DNA of 64,000 nucleotides, taken from Erysipelotrichaceae bacterium. GTDB lineage: Bacteria; Bacillota_I; Bacilli_A; Erysipelotrichales; Erysipelotrichaceae. The notes beneath the pieces are model-generated. The model was not told where the DNA came from. It ran no database searches and saw nothing but the letters and a program-made list of their open reading frames with translations. The stretch covers positions 1-64,000 of the forward strand of contig JAUNCS010000001.1 of assembly GCA_030526485.1 (NCBI GenBank). The letters are read 5' to 3'. Positions 36,755 to 56,372 of this stretch are shown in pieces. Numbering within the stretch: position 1 is the stretch's first letter; every line of letters starts with the position of its first letter. Position numbers and translations under genes: made by a program.

Positions 36755-38776
36755 ATGAAATATTTTGTTGTTCCAATTCTGCTAATGATTTATCTGGAAT
36801 TGTTAGGAAGAAGTTTTTATAGATTTATTGATAAGAAACCATTGGAATTCGCTTTTCCGATAGGCTTTATTTTAATGATGGCTGTCACATATGTTGTGGG
36901 CTGGCCTATTACTGCCTTTAATGGTAATTTTTATCATTTGCTGATTTTATATGGAATACTAATACTTTTAAGTCTGGTATTCATTCTTAAAAATATCAGA
37001 AAGATAGATCTAAAGATTGATATTAAATGGTGGGTATTATTTTTAGTATTAACGCTTTTTCAGACATATATGTCATATAGCCGTACCTTAGGTGAGGTGC
37101 ATGGCTATGACTGTGTTTATTATTTCAATACGATTGGCTTTAATATTGGCAATACTGAATTAAATAGTCTGCATCCACATTTTGGTACCTATCCTAATCT
37201 GGATATTCAATGGATAACCTATGTATTCCAGTCTTTCTATTATGTGGTGGCAGTTTATATTTATGTCTTTGAAAAATCCTTCTCACTGATTGGTTCTACT
37301 TTTGAGCTTGTTCCAGGATATGTCTGGACTTTCCAGATATTGTTGAATGCTTTCTTTGTTTCAACATCATTGATGTGTATCAAAGAGTTTAAGATTAAAA
37401 ACAAGTTATTAAACCTGAGTTTAATTATTCTATTGATCTTATTTATGAATAACTTCTACTGGAATAATGCTTTTGGCTTTATTGGTAATAACTATAGAAT
37501 GTCTGTTCATGCCTTGGCTACACTTTACCTGTATCGTTATGTAAAAGATAAGGATTTGAAGAACTTATATATTGTAATTCTATGCATGCTTGGTATGTGT
37601 GGTCTATCTTCAACCGGTACTTTTGCGACAGTTTTCTTACTATTTGGTTTGTTCTTCTATTTATTTGATAAAGAAAAGAATACATTAAAGATAATTGCTG
37701 TTAGTTTACTTATACCTTTAATCAATATTTCAGTAGTTAAACTGGGACAACATTTATATGCGGTTATATTACCAGCTGTTGCTTGTGCAATTGTTTATTT
37801 CTTAAATGATTTTATTTTGAAACTATACCAGAATAAGTATTTAAGATATGGAACTATCGCATTAGTTTTTATCGCATTATATGGCTTATCAGTAATCACT
37901 TCTGGTAATCTTATTGATTTATCAATGTTCTTTAATAATTACAGTGAGATAGCTGATATGTCCTGGGACTATTTCTATTTCCCTGACTTGAAACATTATA
38001 TTTTCAATATTCTTTTACTGGGAACTGCTTCTTTCTATTTTGTTAAGAATAGAAAAGACCCGCTTACTATTGTTTCTGTGGTGCTGATTTTAACTTTCTT
38101 TAATCCTTTGTGTTCATATTTTGTGAATATGATTAACTGGGTTTATTACAGATGTTATGACATCATTATTAATCAGTACACGATGGTCTTATTTATCTAT
38201 TTCTTAATTGAATGCTTTAAGAAAGATATTTATAAGAATATTGTTTCAGGCGTTTTATTATTGATATCTGTATATCTGGCTGCAGTGCAGATTCCTTGTT
38301 ACTGGCATCCGACATTTAAACCAGATGAAGACTATAACTATGTCTATAAGATTGAAAACAAGGAAATTGAAATCTGTTTAAATGTCAGAAACCTGGTAAA
38401 TGAATTGGGCTTGGAAAATCCAAAAATTATTGCGCCAAATTTCTATATGCCAACATTTATCAGAAATGGTGAATATCTGTATGGTAAGGAAAAGCGTTAT
38501 AACTGGAATCAATATTCTGAAGATACTTATGGTTTATATGTAATCTTCTTCCCTAAGGATGGAGTAGATAATTTCATGCCACCAGATGATCCACTATATC
38601 CATATACTTTGGAATTTTTGGAATCAAGTGGTTATGATATCTTGGTTGTTCCTTATGATAAGTATTACTATAACTGGGAGGATGGCAAGACTCATCCAAT
38701 AATTGAACTTATTGAAACAAAATATCAGCCATCAGATGCCGGCACAGATACTTATGCTGTATATTATTTAAAATAG
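36755..38776 (+). CDS. Large polytopic membrane protein (paralogue of 46742-48748)
   Basis: This 673-residue protein has many hydrophobic helices and a soluble C-terminal tail. It shares length and motifs with the gene at 46742: LGRSFYRF vs FGRWLAYKF, SYSRTLGEVHGYDCV vs SYNTSLGNLHGFDAV, and KPDEDYNYVYKIENKE vs EPEKDFNYIYKMNNDE. The pattern (early Asp after His-Gly, big extracytoplasmic loop) fits GT-C-type glycosyltransferases or a polymerase, but no named family is certain. AAGGAA lies before the ATG. It is followed by a terminator. Confidence 0.78.
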   Translation: MKYFVVPILLMIYLELLGRSFYRFIDKKPLEFAFPIGFILMMAVTYVVGWPITAFNGNFYHLLILYGILILLSLVFILKNIRKIDLKIDIKWWVLFLVLTLFQTYMSYSRTLGEVHGYDCVYYFNTIGFNIGNTELNSLHPHFGTYPNLDIQWITYVFQSFYYVVAVYIYVFEKSFSLIGSTFELVPGYVWTFQILLNAFFVSTSLMCIKEFKIKNKLLNLSLIILLILFMNNFYWNNAFGFIGNNYRMSVHALATLYLYRYVKDKDLKNLYIVILCMLGMCGLSSTGTFATVFLLFGLFFYLFDKEKNTLKIIAVSLLIPLINISVVKLGQHLYAVILPAVACAIVYFLNDFILKLYQNKYLRYGTIALVFIALYGLSVITSGNLIDLSMFFNNYSEIADMSWDYFYFPDLKHYIFNILLLGTASFYFVKNRKDPLTIVSVVLILTFFNPLCSYFVNMINWVYYRCYDIIINQYTMVLFIYFLIECFKKDIYKNIVSGVLLLISVYLAAVQIPCYWHPTFKPDEDYNYVYKIENKEIEICLNVRNLVNELGLENPKIIAPNFYMPTFIRNGEYLYGKEKRYNWNQYSEDTYGLYVIFFPKDGVDNFMPPDDPLYPYTLEFLESSGYDILVVPYDKYYYNWEDGKTHPIIELIETKYQPSDAGTDTYAVYYLK

Positions 38777-45788: not shown

Positions 45789-46742
45789 ATGAAACAGCCA
45801 CTAGTATCAATAATTGTTCCAGTATATAACTGCGAACCATATCTAAGAAGATGTTTGGATAGTTTATTAAAACAGGACTATGCAAATTTTGAAGTGCTTT
45901 GTATAGATGATGGTTCAAAAGATAATTCTGCTCAGATTATAAAAGAGTACCCTTTTAAATATTTTTATCAGGAAAATGCTGGACAGGCTGCAGCTAGAAA
46001 TAGAGGTATTGAATTAGCTAATGGTGAATGGATCTGTTTTGTAGATGGTGATGATGCAGTTAATGAAAAATATCTTTCGTCATTAGTGGCAGGTATTAAA
46101 GAAGATGTTGGTATGGTGGTTTGCCGAATCAACAGAATTAATGAAGATGGTAAATACAATGTTGATGTCATGAAAAAGTATGGTGTTATCACAGCCAATG
46201 AAGCTTTATGTACTATTAACATCGGGCCTACTAACAAACTGATTAAAAAAGAAATTATTGGTAAGTGCCGATTCATAGAAGGCAAACTTCGTTTTGAAGA
46301 TATTCTGTTTACGCCAGAACTATTGGTTAATGCCAAGAAAATAAACGTTATTGAAGATGTCTTATATGATTACTATGTTCGTGAGAACTCAACAATGAGA
46401 CGTTTTGATAAAACATTAGATGACATCTTTACTGTCTTAGATAAATTATTAAGTAAAGATTTCTACAAGGAATATAAAGAAGAAATAGATTATATTGTCT
46501 TTAAAAATGGCTTGTTTGGTCATTTTTCAAGAATAGTATATTTTGATAGAAACACTTTTAAGAAAGAACTTAAAAAAGCTTCTGACTATATTAAGAAAAA
46601 CGTACCTGATTACTGGAATAATAAGTACATCAGAAATGATAAACAAGCTTATTTCTTTGTTGGCACAAGATTATTCAAGATTAACATGTTAGGCATTTTG
46701 GCCTTACCTTTAAAACTAATGGAAAAGAGGGTTAACCGTTAA
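45789..46742 (+). CDS. Family 2 glycosyltransferase
   Basis: This 317-residue GT2 enzyme has VSIIVPVYNCEPYLRRCLDS at the N-terminus, CIDDGSKDNS and the metal-binding FVDGDDAV. No membrane helix is obvious, so it probably works at the inner face of the membrane, adding a sugar to a lipid-linked intermediate. Its stop codon overlaps the next ATG by one base, coupling it to the large membrane protein. No Shine-Dalgarno lies before its ATG. Confidence 0.9.
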   Translation: MKQPLVSIIVPVYNCEPYLRRCLDSLLKQDYANFEVLCIDDGSKDNSAQIIKEYPFKYFYQENAGQAAARNRGIELANGEWICFVDGDDAVNEKYLSSLVAGIKEDVGMVVCRINRINEDGKYNVDVMKKYGVITANEALCTINIGPTNKLIKKEIIGKCRFIEGKLRFEDILFTPELLVNAKKINVIEDVLYDYYVRENSTMRRFDKTLDDIFTVLDKLLSKDFYKEYKEEIDYIVFKNGLFGHFSRIVYFDRNTFKKELKKASDYIKKNVPDYWNNKYIRNDKQAYFFVGTRLFKINMLGILALPLKLMEKRVNR

Positions 46743-48748
46743 TGTTTTACTTTCTTATTCCATTTGTTTTAAGTATTTATTTTGAATTCTTTGGCAGATG
46801 GCTTGCATATAAATTCGATATAAAAATGGGCCTATATTTACCATTAGGCTTTTTTAGCTTTTTAGCTCTTATTTATCCATGTTTATTGCTGACAATTAAT
46901 AATGTATCGTTTTATATTCTACTGATATTGTTTGGATTGCTGGTTCTACTATCTCTTTTCTTTATAGTTAAAGATCTTAAGAAACTGGATAAGAGTATCA
47001 ATGTAAAGAGCCTTGTTTTTTTATTGGTGGTTACACTATTGCTGACTTATTATTCATACAATACAAGTCTTGGTAACTTACATGGATTTGATGCAGTTAC
47101 GTATTTGAACTTTGTAACCAATAATATTGGTAACAAGGCATTAAACAGCAAAGATATTTATTTAAATGGACCAGCTGAGATATCTACCAACTACTACAAT
47201 GGCCAGGTTTATTATTATTTTGCTGGAGTTATAGTTTATGTTTTTGGCAAAGTAGCAAGTTTATTAAAACAGGAATTTTTCTACGCAACTGCATATATCT
47301 GGACATTCCAGATTATGTTTAATCTGCTGTTTGCATCACTTCTTTCAGAAACAATAAATATAGTTAAAAATAAGAAAGTTATATACCTGCCTTTATCTAT
47401 ATTGATATTCATTTTTGGCAGATATTATTTCAACAACATTTATGGATTCTTTGGAAATTCATTATTAACAATCACGATAAGTTATGTAAGTTTATTTACA
47501 TATCTATATTTCAAAACAGATGATAAGAAATATCGTCTAATCTCATATGTTTTATTAACAGGTGGGTGTTGTTTGAGTTCCAGTGGAATCTATATTTTAA
47601 TATTCTATTTATTCGCTTTATATTTCTTTGATTATGAAAAGAATGAATTGATGAATGAGTATTCAATTCTAGTGGTTTTGCCGCTATTGAATGCAATAAA
47701 TATGGAAAGATATCCATTGATATTTGTCTATGGAATTCCATTATTGATGTTTATCTTAATTCGATATTTAGGCAAGTATATCAGTGAACTGATTTCTAAA
47801 TATAAACTTATTAAGATTTTATTAATTGCTGTGTTTATTTTGACATTTGTAGTGTCGCGTTTTTATAGTAATGGATTATTTGATTTCACAGGTTTATTGA
47901 ATAATCTAAGCCAAAAATACGACATGACAATTAACTATTTTTCATTTGTGGATGATGGGTTGTTGTTAATTGTTTATAAGATTTTTGTGATTGCAGTTTA
48001 TTTATTGGCTGCAATTAAAGATCATAAAAAGCTATATATGATGTTTGGATTAATACTGATTATTGCGTTCTTTAATCCATTCTCGTGCAATGTGCTAAAT
48101 CATTTTGTGAATGTCTATTATCGAGCATATGTATTAATAATCAATCCATTTACTCTAATATTGATGTTTGACTCAATAATGGAATTATTAGAAAAGAAAT
48201 ACATCTTTTATTTGGGTATTTTGCTAAGTGTTGTAGTAATACTGATTTCAAATCCTACAAAGCCAATTTATTATCACTATCAGCACGAACCAGAAAAAGA
48301 TTTTAACTACATCTATAAGATGAACAATGACGAGATGGATATTGTTAGAGAACTAAAGGAATCAATTAATTTCTATGGTGAAGAAGATCCATACATCATC
48401 ACCGGAAATATTCTAACTCAGAGCATGATTCCAAATGCTCATTATCTGTACGGCAGAAACTTCTTTGTATCAAAGAACTGGTCTGAGTCTGAAAAAGAAT
48501 TATATGGCATTTTCTATACACCTGAATATTTAGGGGATGAACTGGTTGAAAATCCTGATTATGACCAAATGCATCAATATCTAAATGATGCAGAAGTTAA
48601 TTATGTTGTGGTAGATAAGCGAGTTGAATACTTTGATCCTGAACAGAACAATTATTACTCACTTATATATAAGGTAAATAATACTTGCGGTGTATATCCG
48701 GCATATGAAAATGATACGTATGTTATTTACCGATTTGAGTGGAAATAA
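46742..48748 (+). CDS. Large polytopic membrane protein (paralogue of 36755-38776)
   Basis: This 668-residue protein has about a dozen hydrophobic helices, a LHGFDAVTYLNF segment early on and a soluble tail ending near the C-terminus. It is clearly related to the protein at 36755-38776 by shared motifs throughout, so the two arose by duplication or repeated acquisition. The GT-C or polymerase-like layout suggests glycan transfer or assembly on the outer side of the membrane. It is coupled to the GT2 gene upstream. A large inverted repeat follows. Confidence 0.78.
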   Translation: MFYFLIPFVLSIYFEFFGRWLAYKFDIKMGLYLPLGFFSFLALIYPCLLLTINNVSFYILLILFGLLVLLSLFFIVKDLKKLDKSINVKSLVFLLVVTLLLTYYSYNTSLGNLHGFDAVTYLNFVTNNIGNKALNSKDIYLNGPAEISTNYYNGQVYYYFAGVIVYVFGKVASLLKQEFFYATAYIWTFQIMFNLLFASLLSETINIVKNKKVIYLPLSILIFIFGRYYFNNIYGFFGNSLLTITISYVSLFTYLYFKTDDKKYRLISYVLLTGGCCLSSSGIYILIFYLFALYFFDYEKNELMNEYSILVVLPLLNAINMERYPLIFVYGIPLLMFILIRYLGKYISELISKYKLIKILLIAVFILTFVVSRFYSNGLFDFTGLLNNLSQKYDMTINYFSFVDDGLLLIVYKIFVIAVYLLAAIKDHKKLYMMFGLILIIAFFNPFSCNVLNHFVNVYYRAYVLIINPFTLILMFDSIMELLEKKYIFYLGILLSVVVILISNPTKPIYYHYQHEPEKDFNYIYKMNNDEMDIVRELKESINFYGEEDPYIITGNILTQSMIPNAHYLYGRNFFVSKNWSESEKELYGIFYTPEYLGDELVENPDYDQMHQYLNDAEVNYVVVDKRVEYFDPEQNNYYSLIYKVNNTCGVYPAYENDTYVIYRFEWK

Positions 48749-48751
48749 AAA

Positions 48752-48824
48752 ATGGTGTAAATTAGTCTATTCAAGCAGTTAACTAAATATTCTTAACTGA
48801 CTTATACAGATTAATTTACACCAT
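48752..48824. repeat. Long inverted repeat at the left boundary of the accessory island
   Basis: Arms of 17 bp, ATGGTGTAAATTAGTCT (48752-48768) and its complement with one G-T pair (48808-48824), enclose an inner stem CAGTTAA/TTAACTG (48776-48782, 48793-48799). The whole can fold as one long hairpin with an internal loop. It lies between the stop codons of two convergent genes and could be a terminator or an element boundary; U-runs are weak (CTATTTCTG). Confidence 0.8.
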
Positions 48825-48874
48825 CTATTTCTGTTAAGCATTAAATTTGTTATTGTTGATTAAAACTATAACTC

Positions 48875-50035
48875 TTATTTACCATTGCCATTTTTCTTTC
48901 TATTTAGCATGAATTCTTTGATTTTATCTTTATATTTTAAAATTTCTTCGTTATTTAGGCGTCTATTTTTGTTAAATACCTTGTTTGATATATACAACCA
49001 ATCTTCTTCTGATGTATGGCCGCTTTGCGATCTCTTTCTGTTGCTTTCGCCAAAGAAGCCTGGGTGAGCCACAGCAAATAGATTAATTTTCATATCATTT
49101 ATTTCATATGAATGGTCGTGTTTTCCTTCTAATTGTTCATTAAGGAAATCGTTGTAATTACTTATTGGTTTAAATTCTGTATCAAGAGCTGACAGACATT
49201 CTTCATATACATCTTTACCAAGACAAATAATATTTTCGGGCTGAAGGTAATCTACGAGTTCCTTAAAATAATCTCTAACGGTATAGTCCCCAGTAATCGT
49301 TCTGCATTCGCTAGACCATAACTTGAAGTTTCCGCCACTTATGGTTTTTGAAGTTCTATACAGAGGAATAAAGTTCGTAAAATACAAATCATCGTAATTG
49401 TTTTCGTGAATATCGTATTTATCATCGAGTATGTGAATGTATCTAATAAGATTTTTATCAGATGCCATTATGTTTTTAAATGAATCAAGGTTATCTTTTG
49501 CGGTGAACTTCTTTAGATTGGGAAAGCTTTTTATCTTTTGAATCAGAGGATCACTGTATGCAAGACTGCCGTAATCCTGGCCAACAATCATAAATTTAAT
49601 CTTTTTATGATTTAAACCCTGCCAGTATGTCCACAGATTACCTTTTTCAGCAATCCATTCATCATCAAGTCCTTTAAATAACCCCGAATCCTTACCATCT
49701 TTATTAAACACAACTAGCCTGTTACCTCTTTTAAGAATATCTTCCAGTAATACATCTTTCATAATTATCTCCTTATCCGTCTTAAACCAGTATTTGTGGA
49801 TTTCTCTCATAAATGTTTTTGTGATAGGAAATCCACTGTGTTCACCAATAACACTATCTATATTGCAATATGGGCAAATAGCTGTACCGCTTCTATCTTC
49901 TATCCATTCATTTATCTCATTTGGGTGAAATATGCTTGTGCAGTTAACGCATCCACATACATTGTCTTTTATTAGTTTTTCTTTATGGTTAATAGTATAT
50001 TTATAGGCTTTTTTATAATTATAATTCTTACGCAT
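48875..50035 (-). CDS. Zinc-ribbon domain fused to uracil-DNA-glycosylase-like domain
   Basis: This 386-residue protein joins two parts. Residues 10-85 contain CGCVNC and CPYC (Cys27, 29, 32, 54, 57) with NIDSVIGEHSGFPI, a zinc-ribbon-like domain seen elsewhere as a small stand-alone protein. Residues 140-365 resemble the uracil-DNA glycosylase superfamily: motif 1 as VGQDYGSLAY (152-156 GQDYG) and motif 2 as AHPGFFG (His324). Such enzymes flip and excise damaged bases, but substrate and activity here are unproven. It is last in the minus-strand group with the ADP-ribosylglycohydrolase and small acidic protein. Confidence 0.75.
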   Translation of the reverse strand: MRKNYNYKKAYKYTINHKEKLIKDNVCGCVNCTSIFHPNEINEWIEDRSGTAICPYCNIDSVIGEHSGFPITKTFMREIHKYWFKTDKEIIMKDVLLEDILKRGNRLVVFNKDGKDSGLFKGLDDEWIAEKGNLWTYWQGLNHKKIKFMIVGQDYGSLAYSDPLIQKIKSFPNLKKFTAKDNLDSFKNIMASDKNLIRYIHILDDKYDIHENNYDDLYFTNFIPLYRTSKTISGGNFKLWSSECRTITGDYTVRDYFKELVDYLQPENIICLGKDVYEECLSALDTEFKPISNYNDFLNEQLEGKHDHSYEINDMKINLFAVAHPGFFGESNRKRSQSGHTSEEDWLYISNKVFNKNRRLNNEEILKYKDKIKEFMLNRKKNGNGK

Positions 50036-50055
50036 ATTGTTTCTGATGATAAGTA

Positions 50056-51372
50056 TTAATTCAACTGCACACCTCTTGCCACTTTGACCCTCAATAAAAT
50101 TTCCTTTAAAACTTCTTTATTAATAAATACTCTTTTACCAAAAGGATTAACAATTACACCAGATACATTTTCTTTTTCTAATGTAATCTTAATTAAATCT
50201 TCAATCTTCATGCTTATTACAGTTTTTGACATCATTGAGTTTTTACACTGTTTACTATTTGTAAATAAAGGAATCCACTCAGTATCATCTTCAACCAGAT
50301 TTAATGGATCAAGTGCAAGATATCCTGTTTCTTCACATTCTTTATATTCTTCGATTGTCATGTCAAATATTTGACGTTCCTCAAATAAATCTGCGGGATC
50401 TATTACAGGAACTGGAACTAGGCCACCTTCCGCCATCCTTTCAATGATTGCGTCATATATATTGGAATAATATTGTTCATTATCTTTTTCGTCTTTATTT
50501 CGGTATAAATCCTCTATCTTGTATGCGATATCTATATTTTTAAAATATTCAGGATTTGGATCTCTTGCATCTTCAAGTACATATACGGCTTCAGTATATC
50601 TAAGTGCAGTAGTCCAAATATCAACAGGAAGATAATTCATAACGTTCTCTAACATATACATAGGAATTTCATACATCGCTTCTGCCATTGAGCCTGCAAT
50701 CGCAGCAATTGTATCGGTGTCGCCACCTAGCCAAACCGCATTTCTAATTACTTCTTCAAACGATTCACCTTCCATAAAAGCAGTTAAAGCTAAAGGCAGA
50801 GCATCCATACATGAAACATCATTTCTTTCAGCTTCTTTTAATTCGCGAAGTGTTTTAGATAAATCATAACCAAAGTCTTCTTCTACATACTCCTTAATTT
50901 CTTGTTTAGATTTGCCATTCCTTGCTAGAAAAATTACGGCAGCTACACATTGTGCACCTTTAATTCCCTCTGGATGATTATGGGTAATTTCTGCAGAGTA
51001 TTGTGCAAGCGCCACTGTTTCATCAAGCGTTTCTTTGATCCAGCCACAAAACGAACATCTCATTGCTGCACCATTTCCGTATGAATAATATGGATGTGGA
51101 TTATCCTTTTTCAACCATTCCTTAAACCTCCTTCCATATCCGGCATGTGGATATTTCTTACCCCACGCTCTCATGGCATCAATCATGTATTCTTGCATTT
51201 CATCAACGCTGTTTGTATATGACTGATACAGAGCATCAGCAATGGCTACAGTCATTACAGTGTCATCGGTAAATCTGCAATCTTTATGAAATAACTCAAA
51301 GTCTTTTCTAATATTGCCTTTTCTAAATTCGAATCTTGAACCTACTACATCTCCAATAATTGCTCCAAACAT
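50056..51372 (-). CDS. ADP-ribosylglycohydrolase fused to an SseB-like domain
   Basis: This 438-residue protein starts with an ADP-ribosylglycohydrolase (DraG/ARH) domain (1-270). Metal ligands are visible as FTDDTVM (Thr35, Asp36, Asp37) and GGDTDTIAAIAG (Asp218, Asp220, Thr221). It would remove ADP-ribose from a target. The C-terminal part (about 365-438, EWIPLFTNSKQ and GVIVNPFGKRVFINKEVL) looks like an SseB N-terminal domain. An AAAGGAGG site precedes the ATG. It lies 20 nt upstream of the glycosylase-like gene and downstream of the small acidic protein; a macro-domain gene is divergent nearby. Confidence 0.85.
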   Translation of the reverse strand: MFGAIIGDVVGSRFEFRKGNIRKDFELFHKDCRFTDDTVMTVAIADALYQSYTNSVDEMQEYMIDAMRAWGKKYPHAGYGRRFKEWLKKDNPHPYYSYGNGAAMRCSFCGWIKETLDETVALAQYSAEITHNHPEGIKGAQCVAAVIFLARNGKSKQEIKEYVEEDFGYDLSKTLRELKEAERNDVSCMDALPLALTAFMEGESFEEVIRNAVWLGGDTDTIAAIAGSMAEAMYEIPMYMLENVMNYLPVDIWTTALRYTEAVYVLEDARDPNPEYFKNIDIAYKIEDLYRNKDEKDNEQYYSNIYDAIIERMAEGGLVPVPVIDPADLFEERQIFDMTIEEYKECEETGYLALDPLNLVEDDTEWIPLFTNSKQCKNSMMSKTVISMKIEDLIKITLEKENVSGVIVNPFGKRVFINKEVLKEILLRVKVARGVQLN

Positions 51373-51391
51373 ATTTAAAATCCTCCTTTAT

Positions 51392-51682
51392 TTAGTTAGT
51401 TACTTCTTTTATTAAGTTGATTAGATATTCTTCTAATTTGTTATTGATAAATTCTTTAGATGATTTAACACCCTGATATTCAAGATCCATATAAAACATT
51501 TTGTTCTTATAAAACTCCAGGTATTTACATGAATCTAGTAAATCTTCTTGTCTAAGGGTTAAATGAGAATAAACTACACTTTCGTCTGAATAGATTCGGA
51601 AATTAAAGAAATTAAAATATCTATCTTCTTCTACTTGTTCTTCTTCCTCTGTTAGTTCCAATTCGATCTTTTCATCTATCAT
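51392..51682 (-). CDS. Small acidic hypothetical protein of the ADP-ribose island
   Basis: This 96-residue protein is not recognised. It is acidic at the N-terminus (LELTEEEEQVEEDRY), followed by aromatic-rich strands (FNFFNFRIYS, YLEFYKNKMFYMDLEY) and a C-terminal helix. It has an AGAGG-type site and begins the minus-strand group, 20 nt before the ADP-ribosylglycohydrolase gene. It may be an inhibitor, adaptor or substrate; nothing in the sequence decides this. Confidence 0.68.
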   Translation of the reverse strand: MIDEKIELELTEEEEQVEEDRYFNFFNFRIYSDESVVYSHLTLRQEDLLDSCKYLEFYKNKMFYMDLEYQGVKSSKEFINNKLEEYLINLIKEVTN

Positions 51683-51740
51683 TCTTAATCGCCTCTTTTC
51701 TTGTTACGCCTACATAGTATGTTTGACCGACACAAAAAAG

Positions 51741-51772
51741 GTCTCGTATAACGAGACGTTAGAATATATAAT
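51741..51772 (+). promoter_or_regulatory. Macro-domain gene promoter with perfect palindrome
   Basis: GTCTCGTATAACGAGAC (51741-51757) is a perfect 7-bp-arm palindrome in the divergent intergenic space. TATAAT (51767-51772) lies ten bases after it, so the palindrome covers the -35 position. On the minus strand it is followed by six T residues (complement of 51734-51739) and may also be a leader terminator for the ADP-ribosylglycohydrolase group. The macro gene ATG is only 15 nt after the -10 box and lacks a Shine-Dalgarno. Confidence 0.55.
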
Positions 51773-51787
51773 AAAAATGAAAATAAT

Positions 51788-52771
51788 ATGGCAATTAAAT
51801 TTGTAAGAGCAGACATAACAACTATCAAAGCAGACGCTATTGTTAACTCCGCTAACCCAAGACCGGTGGTAGGCGGTGGAGTAGATAGTGCTATTTATAA
51901 TGCGGCTGGAAGAGAAGACCTTTTAGAACAAAGAAAAAAGATAGGTTCCATAGATAGAGGGCAAGCTAGAATAACCTGGAGTAAGAAGTTGAACTGTCAC
52001 ATAATACATACTGTTGGCCCCAAATGGATAGATGGAAATCATGGGGAGTTTGATACTTTAAGGGACTGTTATAGAAATTCATTAAATCTTGCATATAAAT
52101 ATAGATGTAAATCAATCGTCTTCCCTTTAATATCTGCTGGCGTGTATGGTTTTCCAAAACAAGAAGCACTAAAGATTGCGCTAGATACAATTAATGAATT
52201 TCTTTTTAGAAATACACTGGATGTTACACTATGCGTTTTTGATGAACAGTCTTTTGTGTTGTCAGGCAAAATTGCCGATGTAGTAGAAGAACTTATCACA
52301 AGGAAAGAAAGCGAAGACAAATTAAAGGAAGAATACAATGCGTATTTCGATTTGGTTAAGCAGCGTACACAAAAGGCCAATGATTATAAGCCTGGACATA
52401 AACAAACATATTCCTATAGAAATGAACTGTCTCACATAAATCTTAGCTTTGGTGAAATGTTGAGGCGATATATAGATTCTTTAGGACTTAAAGCAAGCGA
52501 GATTTATAAAACCGCAGGAATACCTAAACAGTCATTCTCTAGAATGTTGTGGGATGTAAACATTCCAAAGAAACACAGTGTCATTATGATTTGTATTGCA
52601 ATGAAGTTAAATCTAGAGCAAACAATCGACATGTTATCTCGTGCCTCTTGTTCTTTTAATCCGGCAAGTGAGGCTGATAAATGTATTATGAATTGTATTA
52701 AAGAAGGTGTGCATGATCTTAATTCAATAAACCAGGCATTGGCTAAATTGAATTTAGATTATCAACTGTAG
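51788..52771 (+). CDS. Macro domain fused to C-terminal HTH domain
   Basis: This 327-residue protein has an N-terminal macro domain (about 1-165) with IVNSANPRPVVGGGVDSAIY (Asn20 and the glycine-rich loop) and PLISAGVYGFPKQEA, both ADP-ribose-binding segments. A charged linker follows, then an HTH-like domain (about 220-280, FGEMLRRYIDSLGLKASEIYKTAGIPKQSFSRM). It may act as an ADP-ribose-sensing transcription factor, an ADP-ribosyl hydrolase or both. It is divergent from the ADP-ribosylglycohydrolase group and is flanked by a palindrome that could be its operator. Confidence 0.85.
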   Translation: MAIKFVRADITTIKADAIVNSANPRPVVGGGVDSAIYNAAGREDLLEQRKKIGSIDRGQARITWSKKLNCHIIHTVGPKWIDGNHGEFDTLRDCYRNSLNLAYKYRCKSIVFPLISAGVYGFPKQEALKIALDTINEFLFRNTLDVTLCVFDEQSFVLSGKIADVVEELITRKESEDKLKEEYNAYFDLVKQRTQKANDYKPGHKQTYSYRNELSHINLSFGEMLRRYIDSLGLKASEIYKTAGIPKQSFSRMLWDVNIPKKHSVIMICIAMKLNLEQTIDMLSRASCSFNPASEADKCIMNCIKEGVHDLNSINQALAKLNLDYQL

Positions 52772-52903: not shown

Positions 52904-54673
52904 ATGGCTATTCATAAAAATCAAATTAAATCTTTGATTTTATCTTTAATTAGCACATTAGCATTTTGTTATCTAAATAGTATTGAAACAAGTGATGTGA
53001 TTGTTTTTGCAATCACATTTTTCTTATGTTTCATATTCTTTAAAAAAACAAAGAAAACAGCAGATATTTATACAAGATTATTAGCAGTTATTCTTTCGGT
53101 ATTACTGTTGCTTGGTAAATATCCGGTTTATATTTATGAGTCAACTGGTGTATATCTGATATTAAAAATGTTTATTACATTAATTGGATCGTATCTGTTC
53201 ATTAATAGATTCACATCTGTTATGTTTAAGTATTTTGATGATTTAAAGGTGCAAGAAGGAAATGATAAAACAGCTAAATGGATTTTCTGGTTGTCATTCA
53301 TAATTATCTTTATTGCCTGGATACCTTCCTGGTTAGCTGAATATCCTGGTAACTTTCCACCAGATACTATTAACCAGATAAGACAGACATTTGGCTTATA
53401 TCCATACAGAAATGCCAATCCGTTAATCCATACACTGATTATTCAGGGGCTATATAATTTATTCTCTTTTATTAAAAACAACAATCTGATATTTGCACTA
53501 ATAGGAATGGTGCAGATGGCAGTAAATGCGTTTATATACTCATCTGTAGTGAAATACGTATATAAGAAAACCGGAAAGAAAAGTTTAGCTCTTTTAAGCA
53601 TGTCTTTCTATGCTTTTATTTCGTATAACGCAATTTATAACTCATCTATATCTAAAGATGCGATGTATGCATCTATTTTGGTATATCTGGCAATCTTATT
53701 AAGTGAATATACGGATAGTGATTCTATATTCAAAAATATTATCTTTATAATTTCTTTCATTCTTTATGGATTGATGAGAACGAACGGTTACTATTCATTA
53801 ATTATCTTGATGGTCTTTGCTGTAGTTGTTGGTCTATTTAAGCATAAAAGAAAACTATTTGTTCTAATGATTGTAGCATTTGTATTGTGTTCAGTTATTA
53901 GAACACCAGTTTATGCATCTTTTATGAATTGGGCTAACAGCAATAATGAACTCTTAAAAATTGATGATGATGAACCGGCTCCAGTATCGTATTTTAGAGG
54001 TTCTTTCTTCAAGGTAATGACTTTTCAACAGGTTGCCAATGTTGTTGTTCATGAACGAGAATTGAATGAAAAGGAAACATGGCTGATTGAAGAATACTGT
54101 TCTTTAGAAGGAATAAAGAAAGCTTATAATCCTATTCTGGTTGATCCGTTATTTGAACAATTAAAAGAGGAGACTAAGGCTACCCGTTTGGATATTAGCT
54201 ATTTTGAATATCTGAAGCTTTGGCTGGAATTGTTTATTAAGTATCCTGGTGACTATTTAGAAGCATATGTAAATATGACCAGATATTATTTCTATCCTAA
54301 CAGATATGTGAAAACTTATTATGAAGGTATTCGTGAAAATGACGTGAATATCTATAAAGAAGAAATTGTAAGTGCGAAATTTAAAGAGAATCTTGATGAA
54401 TTCTATGAATTTGAAAGAAAACTGCCAATAGTAGGAACGGTGTTCAATCCTGGTACAAGTACGTTTATAGCGATTGCTGCATTGATTTATGCAATCCGAA
54501 AAAGAAATACTGTTTCCGCAATGGGCCTTATGTTGAGTTTTTCTAATTTCTTTATATTAATGGCTTGTGTTCCGGTGAATGATGAATTTAGATACATCTA
54601 TCCGATTGTGGCTTCACTGCCATTTATGTGCGCGCAGTTTTGTGTGAACGAAAGGAAAATAGATGAGAATTAA
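52904..54673 (+). CDS. DUF6020-like polytopic membrane protein
   Basis: This 589-residue protein has about twelve helices and a signature WIPSWLAEYPGNFPPDTINQ region in an extracytoplasmic loop, with NPLIHTLIIQGLYN afterwards. The next gene encodes a relative with LPVWLMEYPSNVSPDTLSQ and HHPFAHTMWLKAL at the same places. The family (DUF6020-like) appears in surface glycan regions and may act as GT-C-type transferases; function is inferred. It overlaps the next gene by 11 nt. TATAAT lies seven bases before ATG. Confidence 0.78.
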   Translation: MAIHKNQIKSLILSLISTLAFCYLNSIETSDVIVFAITFFLCFIFFKKTKKTADIYTRLLAVILSVLLLLGKYPVYIYESTGVYLILKMFITLIGSYLFINRFTSVMFKYFDDLKVQEGNDKTAKWIFWLSFIIIFIAWIPSWLAEYPGNFPPDTINQIRQTFGLYPYRNANPLIHTLIIQGLYNLFSFIKNNNLIFALIGMVQMAVNAFIYSSVVKYVYKKTGKKSLALLSMSFYAFISYNAIYNSSISKDAMYASILVYLAILLSEYTDSDSIFKNIIFIISFILYGLMRTNGYYSLIILMVFAVVVGLFKHKRKLFVLMIVAFVLCSVIRTPVYASFMNWANSNNELLKIDDDEPAPVSYFRGSFFKVMTFQQVANVVVHERELNEKETWLIEEYCSLEGIKKAYNPILVDPLFEQLKEETKATRLDISYFEYLKLWLELFIKYPGDYLEAYVNMTRYYFYPNRYVKTYYEGIRENDVNIYKEEIVSAKFKENLDEFYEFERKLPIVGTVFNPGTSTFIAIAALIYAIRKRNTVSAMGLMLSFSNFFILMACVPVNDEFRYIYPIVASLPFMCAQFCVNERKIDEN

Positions 54674-56372
54674 TATTTTATTAAAGGCGATTACATCTGT
54701 ATTATCTTTTCTATATATAACCAACAATAAAATAGGTATAAACAGTATCTATCCTTTAGTAATGGTTGCGTTAACTTATTATTTTTATAAGAATATAAAT
54801 TATGAGAAAAATATTTGGACGAGACTGGCATCTGTTATTTTTGGTTTATACGGAATTATCAGCATATTCCAGGTAAATGTGTATGAAGAACAGTTGCAAA
54901 GACTTCCTGTTCTTTTGATGCTTATTAAACTATTGGTAATTTTCTTTGGTATTTATTTCTTTGTGAATTATTCTCTTTCATGGTTGTATAAAAAGATAGA
55001 TAATCTTGAATTAAAGAAAAACAATAAGTATACAGGTAAACACATTTTCATAGTATCGTTTATTTTCTTGTTGATTATGTATCTACCAGTATGGTTAATG
55101 GAATATCCTAGCAATGTAAGTCCAGATACACTTTCACAAGTAAAGCAGATTTTAAGTGGAGAATACATTAATCATCATCCTTTTGCCCATACAATGTGGC
55201 TTAAGGCTTTAATGATGTTCTCTAAAGACCTAAATATCAGAATTGGTATAGCTGCTTTACTGCAAATGATAATTAACGCTTTGGCATTTAGTTATGTGTC
55301 AACTTTCATATACAAGAAAAGTAAATCATTATTGTTAACAGTGATTTCTACGCTATTCTATGGCTTGTTAAGTTTTAATGCTTTCTATTCAATAACTTTA
55401 ATTAAAGATGTTACGCATGCGGTTATCTGCTGTTTATTAACTGTTTTAATTATCGACTACTTTGATAGTGAACAAAATAGGAATATTAAATTAGGATTGA
55501 TTTTCATAGTATTGGTTTTATTCTGTTTATTCAGATCAAATGGTTATTATGCGTGTATTTTAGTGTTCTTAATTTCTTTGATATTAAATATCGAAAATAA
55601 AGAATACAGACTAAGTGCTGTAATCTTACTTTCAATAATTGTTTCAGCAATTGTTAAAGGACCAATATATAGCGCTTTAGGAGTTGGTAATGCAAGTCCT
55701 GCAGAAATGCTTTCAATACCTCTTCAGCAAATAGCTTTAACCATTAAAAATGGCTGCTATTTAAAGGAAAATGAATTAGCGTTATTAAATAAAGTGATTG
55801 ATGTTTCAAAAGTACCAGATGCTTATGATGTATTCTTATCTGATCCGATTAAGAATCTGTTGAATGAACACGGAAATATTGATTATTTATTAAATAATAA
55901 ATTTGAATATTTAAAGTTGTGGATATCAATAGGTATAAGAAATCCGATTGTATACATTAGGGCTTGGGTAAATCAGATTAGTATGTTGTTTAGCCCATAT
56001 TATTATTCAACCAGCATTTTCTGGGAAGTTACTCCTAATAATATTGGAATTGTAGGAACACCATTATTAATTAATGGAGGTTTAAACGAAACACTGCATA
56101 TGTTAGCTTATAAGCAACACAATATTTCGTTGATTGGCTGGTTCCATTATCAGTCTATAACTACTTGGATAATGACTGTATCAGCATTCTATTTATTAAG
56201 AAAAAAGAATAACACTACCATTATTGTTTTTGCCTTATATTTTAGCGTGCTATTTACTTTATGCATCAGCTCTCCATATAACGCATGCTTTAGATATTTT
56301 TATGGTGTGATAGTGTGTCTGCCGTTAATGTTGTTAATGGTTTTGGGAAAGGACTGTAAAGAAAATGAGTAA
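54663..56372 (+). CDS. DUF6020-like polytopic membrane protein, second copy
   Basis: This 569-residue protein is a tandem paralogue of the preceding one with the same loop motif (EYPSNVSPDTLSQVKQI) and helix order, but clearly diverged. It begins 11 nt inside the upstream gene, where GAAAGG supplies a ribosome site, and overlaps the following GT2 gene by eight bases. Both proteins probably work on the outer face of the membrane, with acceptor or linkage differing between the copies; this is inference. Confidence 0.78.
   Translation: MRINILLKAITSVLSFLYITNNKIGINSIYPLVMVALTYYFYKNINYEKNIWTRLASVIFGLYGIISIFQVNVYEEQLQRLPVLLMLIKLLVIFFGIYFFVNYSLSWLYKKIDNLELKKNNKYTGKHIFIVSFIFLLIMYLPVWLMEYPSNVSPDTLSQVKQILSGEYINHHPFAHTMWLKALMMFSKDLNIRIGIAALLQMIINALAFSYVSTFIYKKSKSLLLTVISTLFYGLLSFNAFYSITLIKDVTHAVICCLLTVLIIDYFDSEQNRNIKLGLIFIVLVLFCLFRSNGYYACILVFLISLILNIENKEYRLSAVILLSIIVSAIVKGPIYSALGVGNASPAEMLSIPLQQIALTIKNGCYLKENELALLNKVIDVSKVPDAYDVFLSDPIKNLLNEHGNIDYLLNNKFEYLKLWISIGIRNPIVYIRAWVNQISMLFSPYYYSTSIFWEVTPNNIGIVGTPLLINGGLNETLHMLAYKQHNISLIGWFHYQSITTWIMTVSAFYLLRKKNNTTIIVFALYFSVLFTLCISSPYNACFRYFYGVIVCLPLMLLMVLGKDCKENE

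Follow-up and report, generated by a model that had tools for sequence, protein, structure and literature searches.

In the first 64,000 nucleotides of contig JAUNCS010000001.1 (assembly GCA_030526485.1) from an Erysipelotrichaceae bacterium, here called the window, the gene for a macro-domain protein with a C-terminal helix-turn-helix-like (HTH) domain and a divergently oriented gene for an ADP-ribosylglycohydrolase (ARH) form a conserved core, and the four genes among which this pair is found are not one conserved system. An earlier note on this DNA had described a four-gene accessory island centred on ADP-ribose at 48752-52771, and the ORF listing of the window confirmed four intact open reading frames (ORFs) there. 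The macro-HTH protein (327 aa; 51788-52771, plus strand) is encoded opposite three minus-strand genes, the first of which specifies a small acidic protein (96 aa, pI 4.4; 51392-51682), followed by an ARH-SseB fusion (438 aa; 50056-51372) and a protein with a zinc ribbon and a domain of the uracil-DNA glycosylase (UDG) superfamily (386 aa; 48875-50035). The favoured explanation, to which an even chance of being correct is given, treats the locus as a self-regulated operon that responds to ADP-ribose, and as a variant, with macro-HTH, of the predicted ARG-centric systems for countering ADP-ribosylation.

The pairing of the two core genes was assessed by searching for macro-HTH and ARH proteins separately in 147 related genomes and comparing the position lists by hand. 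An ARH gene lies within a few kb of the macro-HTH gene in 18 of 35 near-full-length macro-HTH loci, against an expectation of 0.13 if a 2-Mb genome carries about 1.5 ARH genes. In a wider, partly selected set, ARH is present near 44 of 115 macro-HTH loci. An alignment of seven closer sequences was used as the query to collect the 80 best-scoring macro-HTH matches from GTDB genomes, and their neighbours were identified by tblastn. The HTH part was found in all 80, a gene for a vWA-domain protein lay nearby in 56 and ARH in 18; as these loci are the best-scoring matches only, the fractions are not population estimates. The combination of macro-HTH with a vWA-like gene also occurs in the phage record PV036457.1, and a Selenomonas plasmid carries macro-HTH together with an annotated vWA gene. 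A recurrent group of neighbouring ORFs (c4) was discarded, as it appeared to consist of spurious antisense ORFs from GC-rich genomes. The check on co-occurrence proposed in the earlier note thus gives a divided answer: the macro-HTH/ARH pair recurs far above chance, but the other two genes do not.

The macro-HTH protein matches the Pfam Macro profile at 7.3e-31. Its macro domain is of the MacroD/YmdB type and covers about residues 1-170, and the HTH-like domain with five helices covers about residues 221-320. An AlphaFold2 model based on 40 sequences has a mean pLDDT of 88 and two confident domains; the first five helices of the C-terminal domain follow an HTH-like order. YmdB and MACROD2 are the nearest solved folds. 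The motifs NxAN and GGGVD are present, and the window protein retains the equivalents of the catalytic Asn and Asp of MacroD-type domains. Not all relatives do, so sensor-only forms of macro-HTH may exist.

The region between the divergent genes (105 bp; 51683-51787) contains GTCTCGTATAACGAGAC. A GTCTC-N7-GAGAC dyad at 51741-51757, the predicted operator, lies 30 bp before the start codon of macro-HTH and occurs only once in the 1.95-Mb genome of the window. The dyad is found at the equivalent promoter in five of five close orthologues (the window and genomes G024, G034, G031 and G017), at a distance of 17-30 bp from the start codon, and its central bases vary among these orthologues, whose macro-HTH proteins are 51-79% identical. 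When 36 genomes of the genus were scanned, one copy was counted in the window genome, G024 and G031 and two in G034 and G017; the remaining genomes had zero to six copies, which is the chance level. Among 131 upstream regions of macro-HTH genes the dyad is common only to the clade of the window, and a palindrome search upstream of the other macro-HTH clades yielded no further widely shared dyad. The chance product for the fivefold match is about 1e-20, a value that is uncorrected for motif choice and overstates the significance because the motif was found by inspecting these very regions; even so, five matches at one position would hardly arise by chance. Since the dyad is unique in the genome and present at the same promoter in the four closest relatives, macro-HTH is probably the autoregulator of the operon. 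The earlier proposal of a macro-domain regulator is supported by this conserved dyad.

The 438-aa protein matches the Pfam profiles for ARH (2.5e-40) and SseB (2.6e-6) and carries the ARH motifs TDDT and GGDTD. The diagnostic residues of the ARH and macro domains, where the earlier note had read visible ligands, are present in both proteins. ARH-SseB fusions adjoin macro-HTH in the window, in the genomes G102 and G056 and at the loci L109, L119, L144 and L147. A vWA gene is present at one of these seven ARH-SseB loci versus 25 of 37 other ARH loci (Fisher p=0.013, from small numbers and uncorrected for relatedness), which suggests that SseB and vWA are alternatives to one another. Interchangeable chaperones have been described by Iyer et al. 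2022 (PMC9503650, section 3.8). Other forms of ARH near macro-HTH are an ARH-macro fusion (L157) and an ARH-DUF6508 protein (L122). The remaining cargo in relatives is variable and includes an NMN adenylyltransferase (NMNAT) with PnuC, an Nmad3-macro fusion with Sel1, and a Y-family polymerase. The polymerase gene is located between macro-HTH and vWA on an IMG/VR contig (L114:11050-15293). The fusion of Nmad3 (nucleotide modification associated) to a macro domain is encoded near macro-HTH and ARH in G017 (L089:3047-4489), where Sel1 is also among the macro-HTH neighbours.

Iyer et al. predicted ARG-centred host systems that lack a transferase and counter viral ADP-ribosylation (PMC9503650, section 3.8), with Nudix-HTH or WYL-HTH regulators and vWA, SseB or TY-type (TY-Chap) chaperones; the action against phage ADP-ribosylation is a prediction in that study too. 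The window locus shares with these systems an ARG/ARH enzyme with catalytic motifs, a one-component HTH regulator with a sensor for a nucleotide derivative, a chaperone-like partner (SseB in the window, vWA at related loci) and variable accessory genes that include macro domains. The scan of neighbouring genes from 38886 to 60801, which covered all but the ORFs at 54663 and 57369, recognised no ADP-ribosyltransferase or sirtuin, in agreement with the earlier note. In contrast to the published systems, the sensor in the window is a macro domain instead of a Nudix or WYL domain, the hosts are Bacillota, outside the lineages named in PMC9503650, no R-P phosphatase or ARPP was recognised, and the zinc-ribbon/UDG accessory is absent from that account. 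A Nudix or WYL HTH regulator is not obligatory, as over 42% of the published systems have one (PMC9503650).

The earlier note had instead drawn a comparison with DarT/DarG, which fits less well than the ARG-centric systems with their ARH, SseB/vWA and HTH sensor (PMC9503650). The macro domain and the ADP-ribose chemistry are common to both, and the intact catalytic-type residues of the macro domain would suit an antitoxin, so the locus could be the remnant of a DarTG-like toxin-antitoxin pair whose transferase was lost. However, no transferase was found among the window neighbours scanned and none was recognised among the annotated neighbours in relatives, the macro protein is fused to an HTH-like domain and has a conserved dyad at its promoter, and a separate ARH hydrolase is present, which leaves this origin highly improbable. 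Of the ADP-ribose-removal system that the note had envisaged, removal without a partner transferase is retained, but not the four genes as one system.

The two genes flanking ARH-SseB behave differently from the core. In the 386-aa protein the zinc ribbon covers about residues 10-95 and the UDG-superfamily domain about residues 123-353. Direct matches to UDG profiles are weak (0.031 for Pfam and 0.027 for the NCBIfam type-4 UDG), and the UDG-type motifs GQDYG (GQDxG), TNFIP, LG and HPG are present. A distant homologue of the core was found in phage SPR (UNY48629.1; E=4e-3 in the collection search and 7e-10 in the pairwise comparison), and the alignment spans about 230 residues that share the GQDxG, TN and LG motifs. 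UNY48629.1 scores 5e-15 against the Pfam UDG superfamily and matches solved UDGs including 4ZBY. Based on this bridge and the motifs GQDxG and HPG, the 386-aa protein is assigned by sequence to the UDG superfamily, in line with the UDG-like motifs and zinc ribbon of the earlier note. A single-sequence AlphaFold model of the protein reached a pLDDT of 32, too low to be informative. The SPR gene (L255:2893-3549) lies two genes upstream of the AimR gene in this SPbeta-type phage, and the genome of the window holds two further UDG-superfamily genes.

Apart from the protein itself, 316 genomes from the order and 392 from the phylum yielded no homologue of the glycosylase core with E<=0.001, and searches of GTDB genome contigs, viral contigs and plasmids gave no real homologue. 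Weak matches at L107 and L108 were dismissed, as they sit in unrelated proteins. The zinc ribbon at the N-terminus belongs to a common family of small proteins, which occurs in 12 other genomes of relatives, on plasmids and in phages. A stand-alone zinc-ribbon ORF of the same family (L145:8690-8944) lies about 1 kb from a macro-HTH/vWA/ARH locus, a weak hint of a link. For the small acidic protein no credible homologue was found in the 147 related genomes. The idea of the four genes as one unit is thus not borne out in the genomes searched, where neither the glycosylase core nor the small acidic protein has partner-linked homologues, and the glycosylase-like, seemingly DNA-repair-related gene is a local passenger.

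These results raise the question whether the genes for the small acidic protein and the UDG protein are insertions unrelated to a genuine macro-HTH/ARH pair, with which they share a promoter but no functional link to ADP-ribose. No homologues of the small protein or of the glycosylase core travel with the pair, and many genomes and plasmids carry the zinc ribbon by itself, as an accretion of neighbours would predict. Yet the three minus-strand genes are separated by gaps of only 19 and 20 bp, lie on the same strand and are followed by one terminator-like hairpin, and UDG-ARH neighbourhoods have been published from defence islands. Simple accretion is considered unlikely. In the published cases, an ARH gene adjoins brig1 and also its N. 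zhouii homologue, and another is included in the brig3 clone (PMC11078745, PMC13160076). The window resembles them in having a UDG-superfamily protein next to ARH, a likeness of neighbourhood and description; both Brig1 and the bridging SPR protein lead to the family-4 UDG of S. tokodaii (4ZBY). The window protein differs from Brig1 and Brig3 in its N-terminal zinc ribbon. If the favoured reading is correct, the locus would add a case to the published pattern of UDG next to ARH.

For the favoured self-regulated operon the following mechanism is proposed. The computations establish the domains, the macro-HTH/ARH pairing, the conservation of the dyad, the arrangement as an operon and the place of the glycosylase-like protein in the UDG superfamily; the binding to DNA, the ligand, whether regulation is by repression, the substrates, the part played by SseB and, as the earlier note also had it, any anti-phage role are inferred. 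The macro-HTH protein would bind the GTCTC-N7-GAGAC dyad and repress both its own gene and the divergent operon. The trigger would be a rise in ADP-ribose or a small derivative of it, for example through modification of host molecules by a phage or toxin transferase, or through NAD+ breakdown. Binding of this ligand by the macro domain would release the repressor from the DNA and allow ARH-SseB to be made. SseB could then serve as a chaperone-like module that presents modified proteins, from which ARH would strip the ADP-ribose, and the zinc-ribbon/UDG protein may be a swapped-in accessory that excises a modified or damaged base in a Brig-type manner. A more far-reaching and tentative proposal, rather doubtful at present, is that macro-HTH proteins make up a third class of transcription factors that sense ADP-ribose, widespread in Bacillota, which switch on interchangeable ADP-ribose-removal modules against phage transferases and which have here recruited a zinc-ribbon DNA glycosylase for a modified, possibly ADP-ribosylated, base. 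If the favoured reading is correct, a macro-domain sensor with a specific 17-bp operator would join the known ADP-ribose-responsive regulators; macro-HTH regulators are undescribed in the literature found, the coverage of which is incomplete. It would also open to experiment the host systems predicted to reverse ADP-ribosylation by phages, no test of which was found in the literature searched.

Several observations weigh against the favoured reading. The UDG gene is not conserved with the macro-HTH/ARH core in any genome searched, no defence genes were found among the window neighbours scanned, and the locus gave no convincing match to any PADLOC model (a match to DrmMII at 0.0054 was judged to be chance). 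ARH was dispensable for Brig3 defence against the phage tested (PMC13160076). The HTH assignment comes from the predicted helices and the dyad, with no profile match, and because catalytic-type residues are retained the macro domain could combine enzymatic activity with sensing. The dyad in the window can also be read as a weak, short terminator-like hairpin, a reading that was ranked lower; the T run is not kept in relatives. Finally, ARH, an NMN adenylyltransferase-like gene and PnuC lie in this order in G034 and G024, and the arrangement recurs in G031, where the contig ends within PnuC.

Because the closest relatives carry these NAD-salvage genes, NAD homeostasis is a serious rival, possible although somewhat improbable. 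The macro-HTH protein would then be a macro-domain counterpart of the Nudix-HTH regulator NrtR, which senses ADP-ribose (PMC9503650), and would tune NAD salvage and ADP-ribose recycling with no role in defence. Both regulators have an ADP-ribose-type sensor fused to an HTH, but the macro-HTH sensor is not a Nudix domain and its fold is unrelated, its ligand is a predicted one, and it is paired with an ARH operon. A 5'-nucleotidase-type phosphoesterase gene is convergent with macro-HTH in G031 (L088:10452-12059), and a related ORF is present in G024 (L086:2-847); with PnuC and NMNAT, these genes look like a set for NAD salvage. However, the macro-HTH proteins of G034, G024 and G031, the three closest relatives, are 78-79% identical, so the linkage probably reflects one acquisition. 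Furthermore, no PnuC or NMNAT homologues lie near macro-HTH among the best 80 loci from GTDB genomes, the core in the window has no adjoining NAD-salvage gene, and salvage offers no obvious role for vWA or SseB. Sequence does not decide between defence and homeostasis, and the regulatory core is the better supported part.

Past the end of the minus-strand operon, between convergent genes, lies a long inverted repeat with flanking A and T runs (48747-48829), which folds at -34.9 kcal/mol (z = -7.7). It is probably a bidirectional terminator that closes the operon, and a remnant of a miniature inverted-repeat transposable element is possible. The scanned flanking genes mostly encode glycosyltransferases and other surface-polysaccharide functions, as the earlier note had stated, and these sugar genes are rare within the genus. 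Two pairs of paralogous large proteins, also rare in the genus, are encoded around the locus, one at 36755-38776 and 46742-48748 and the other at 52904-54673 and 54663-56372.

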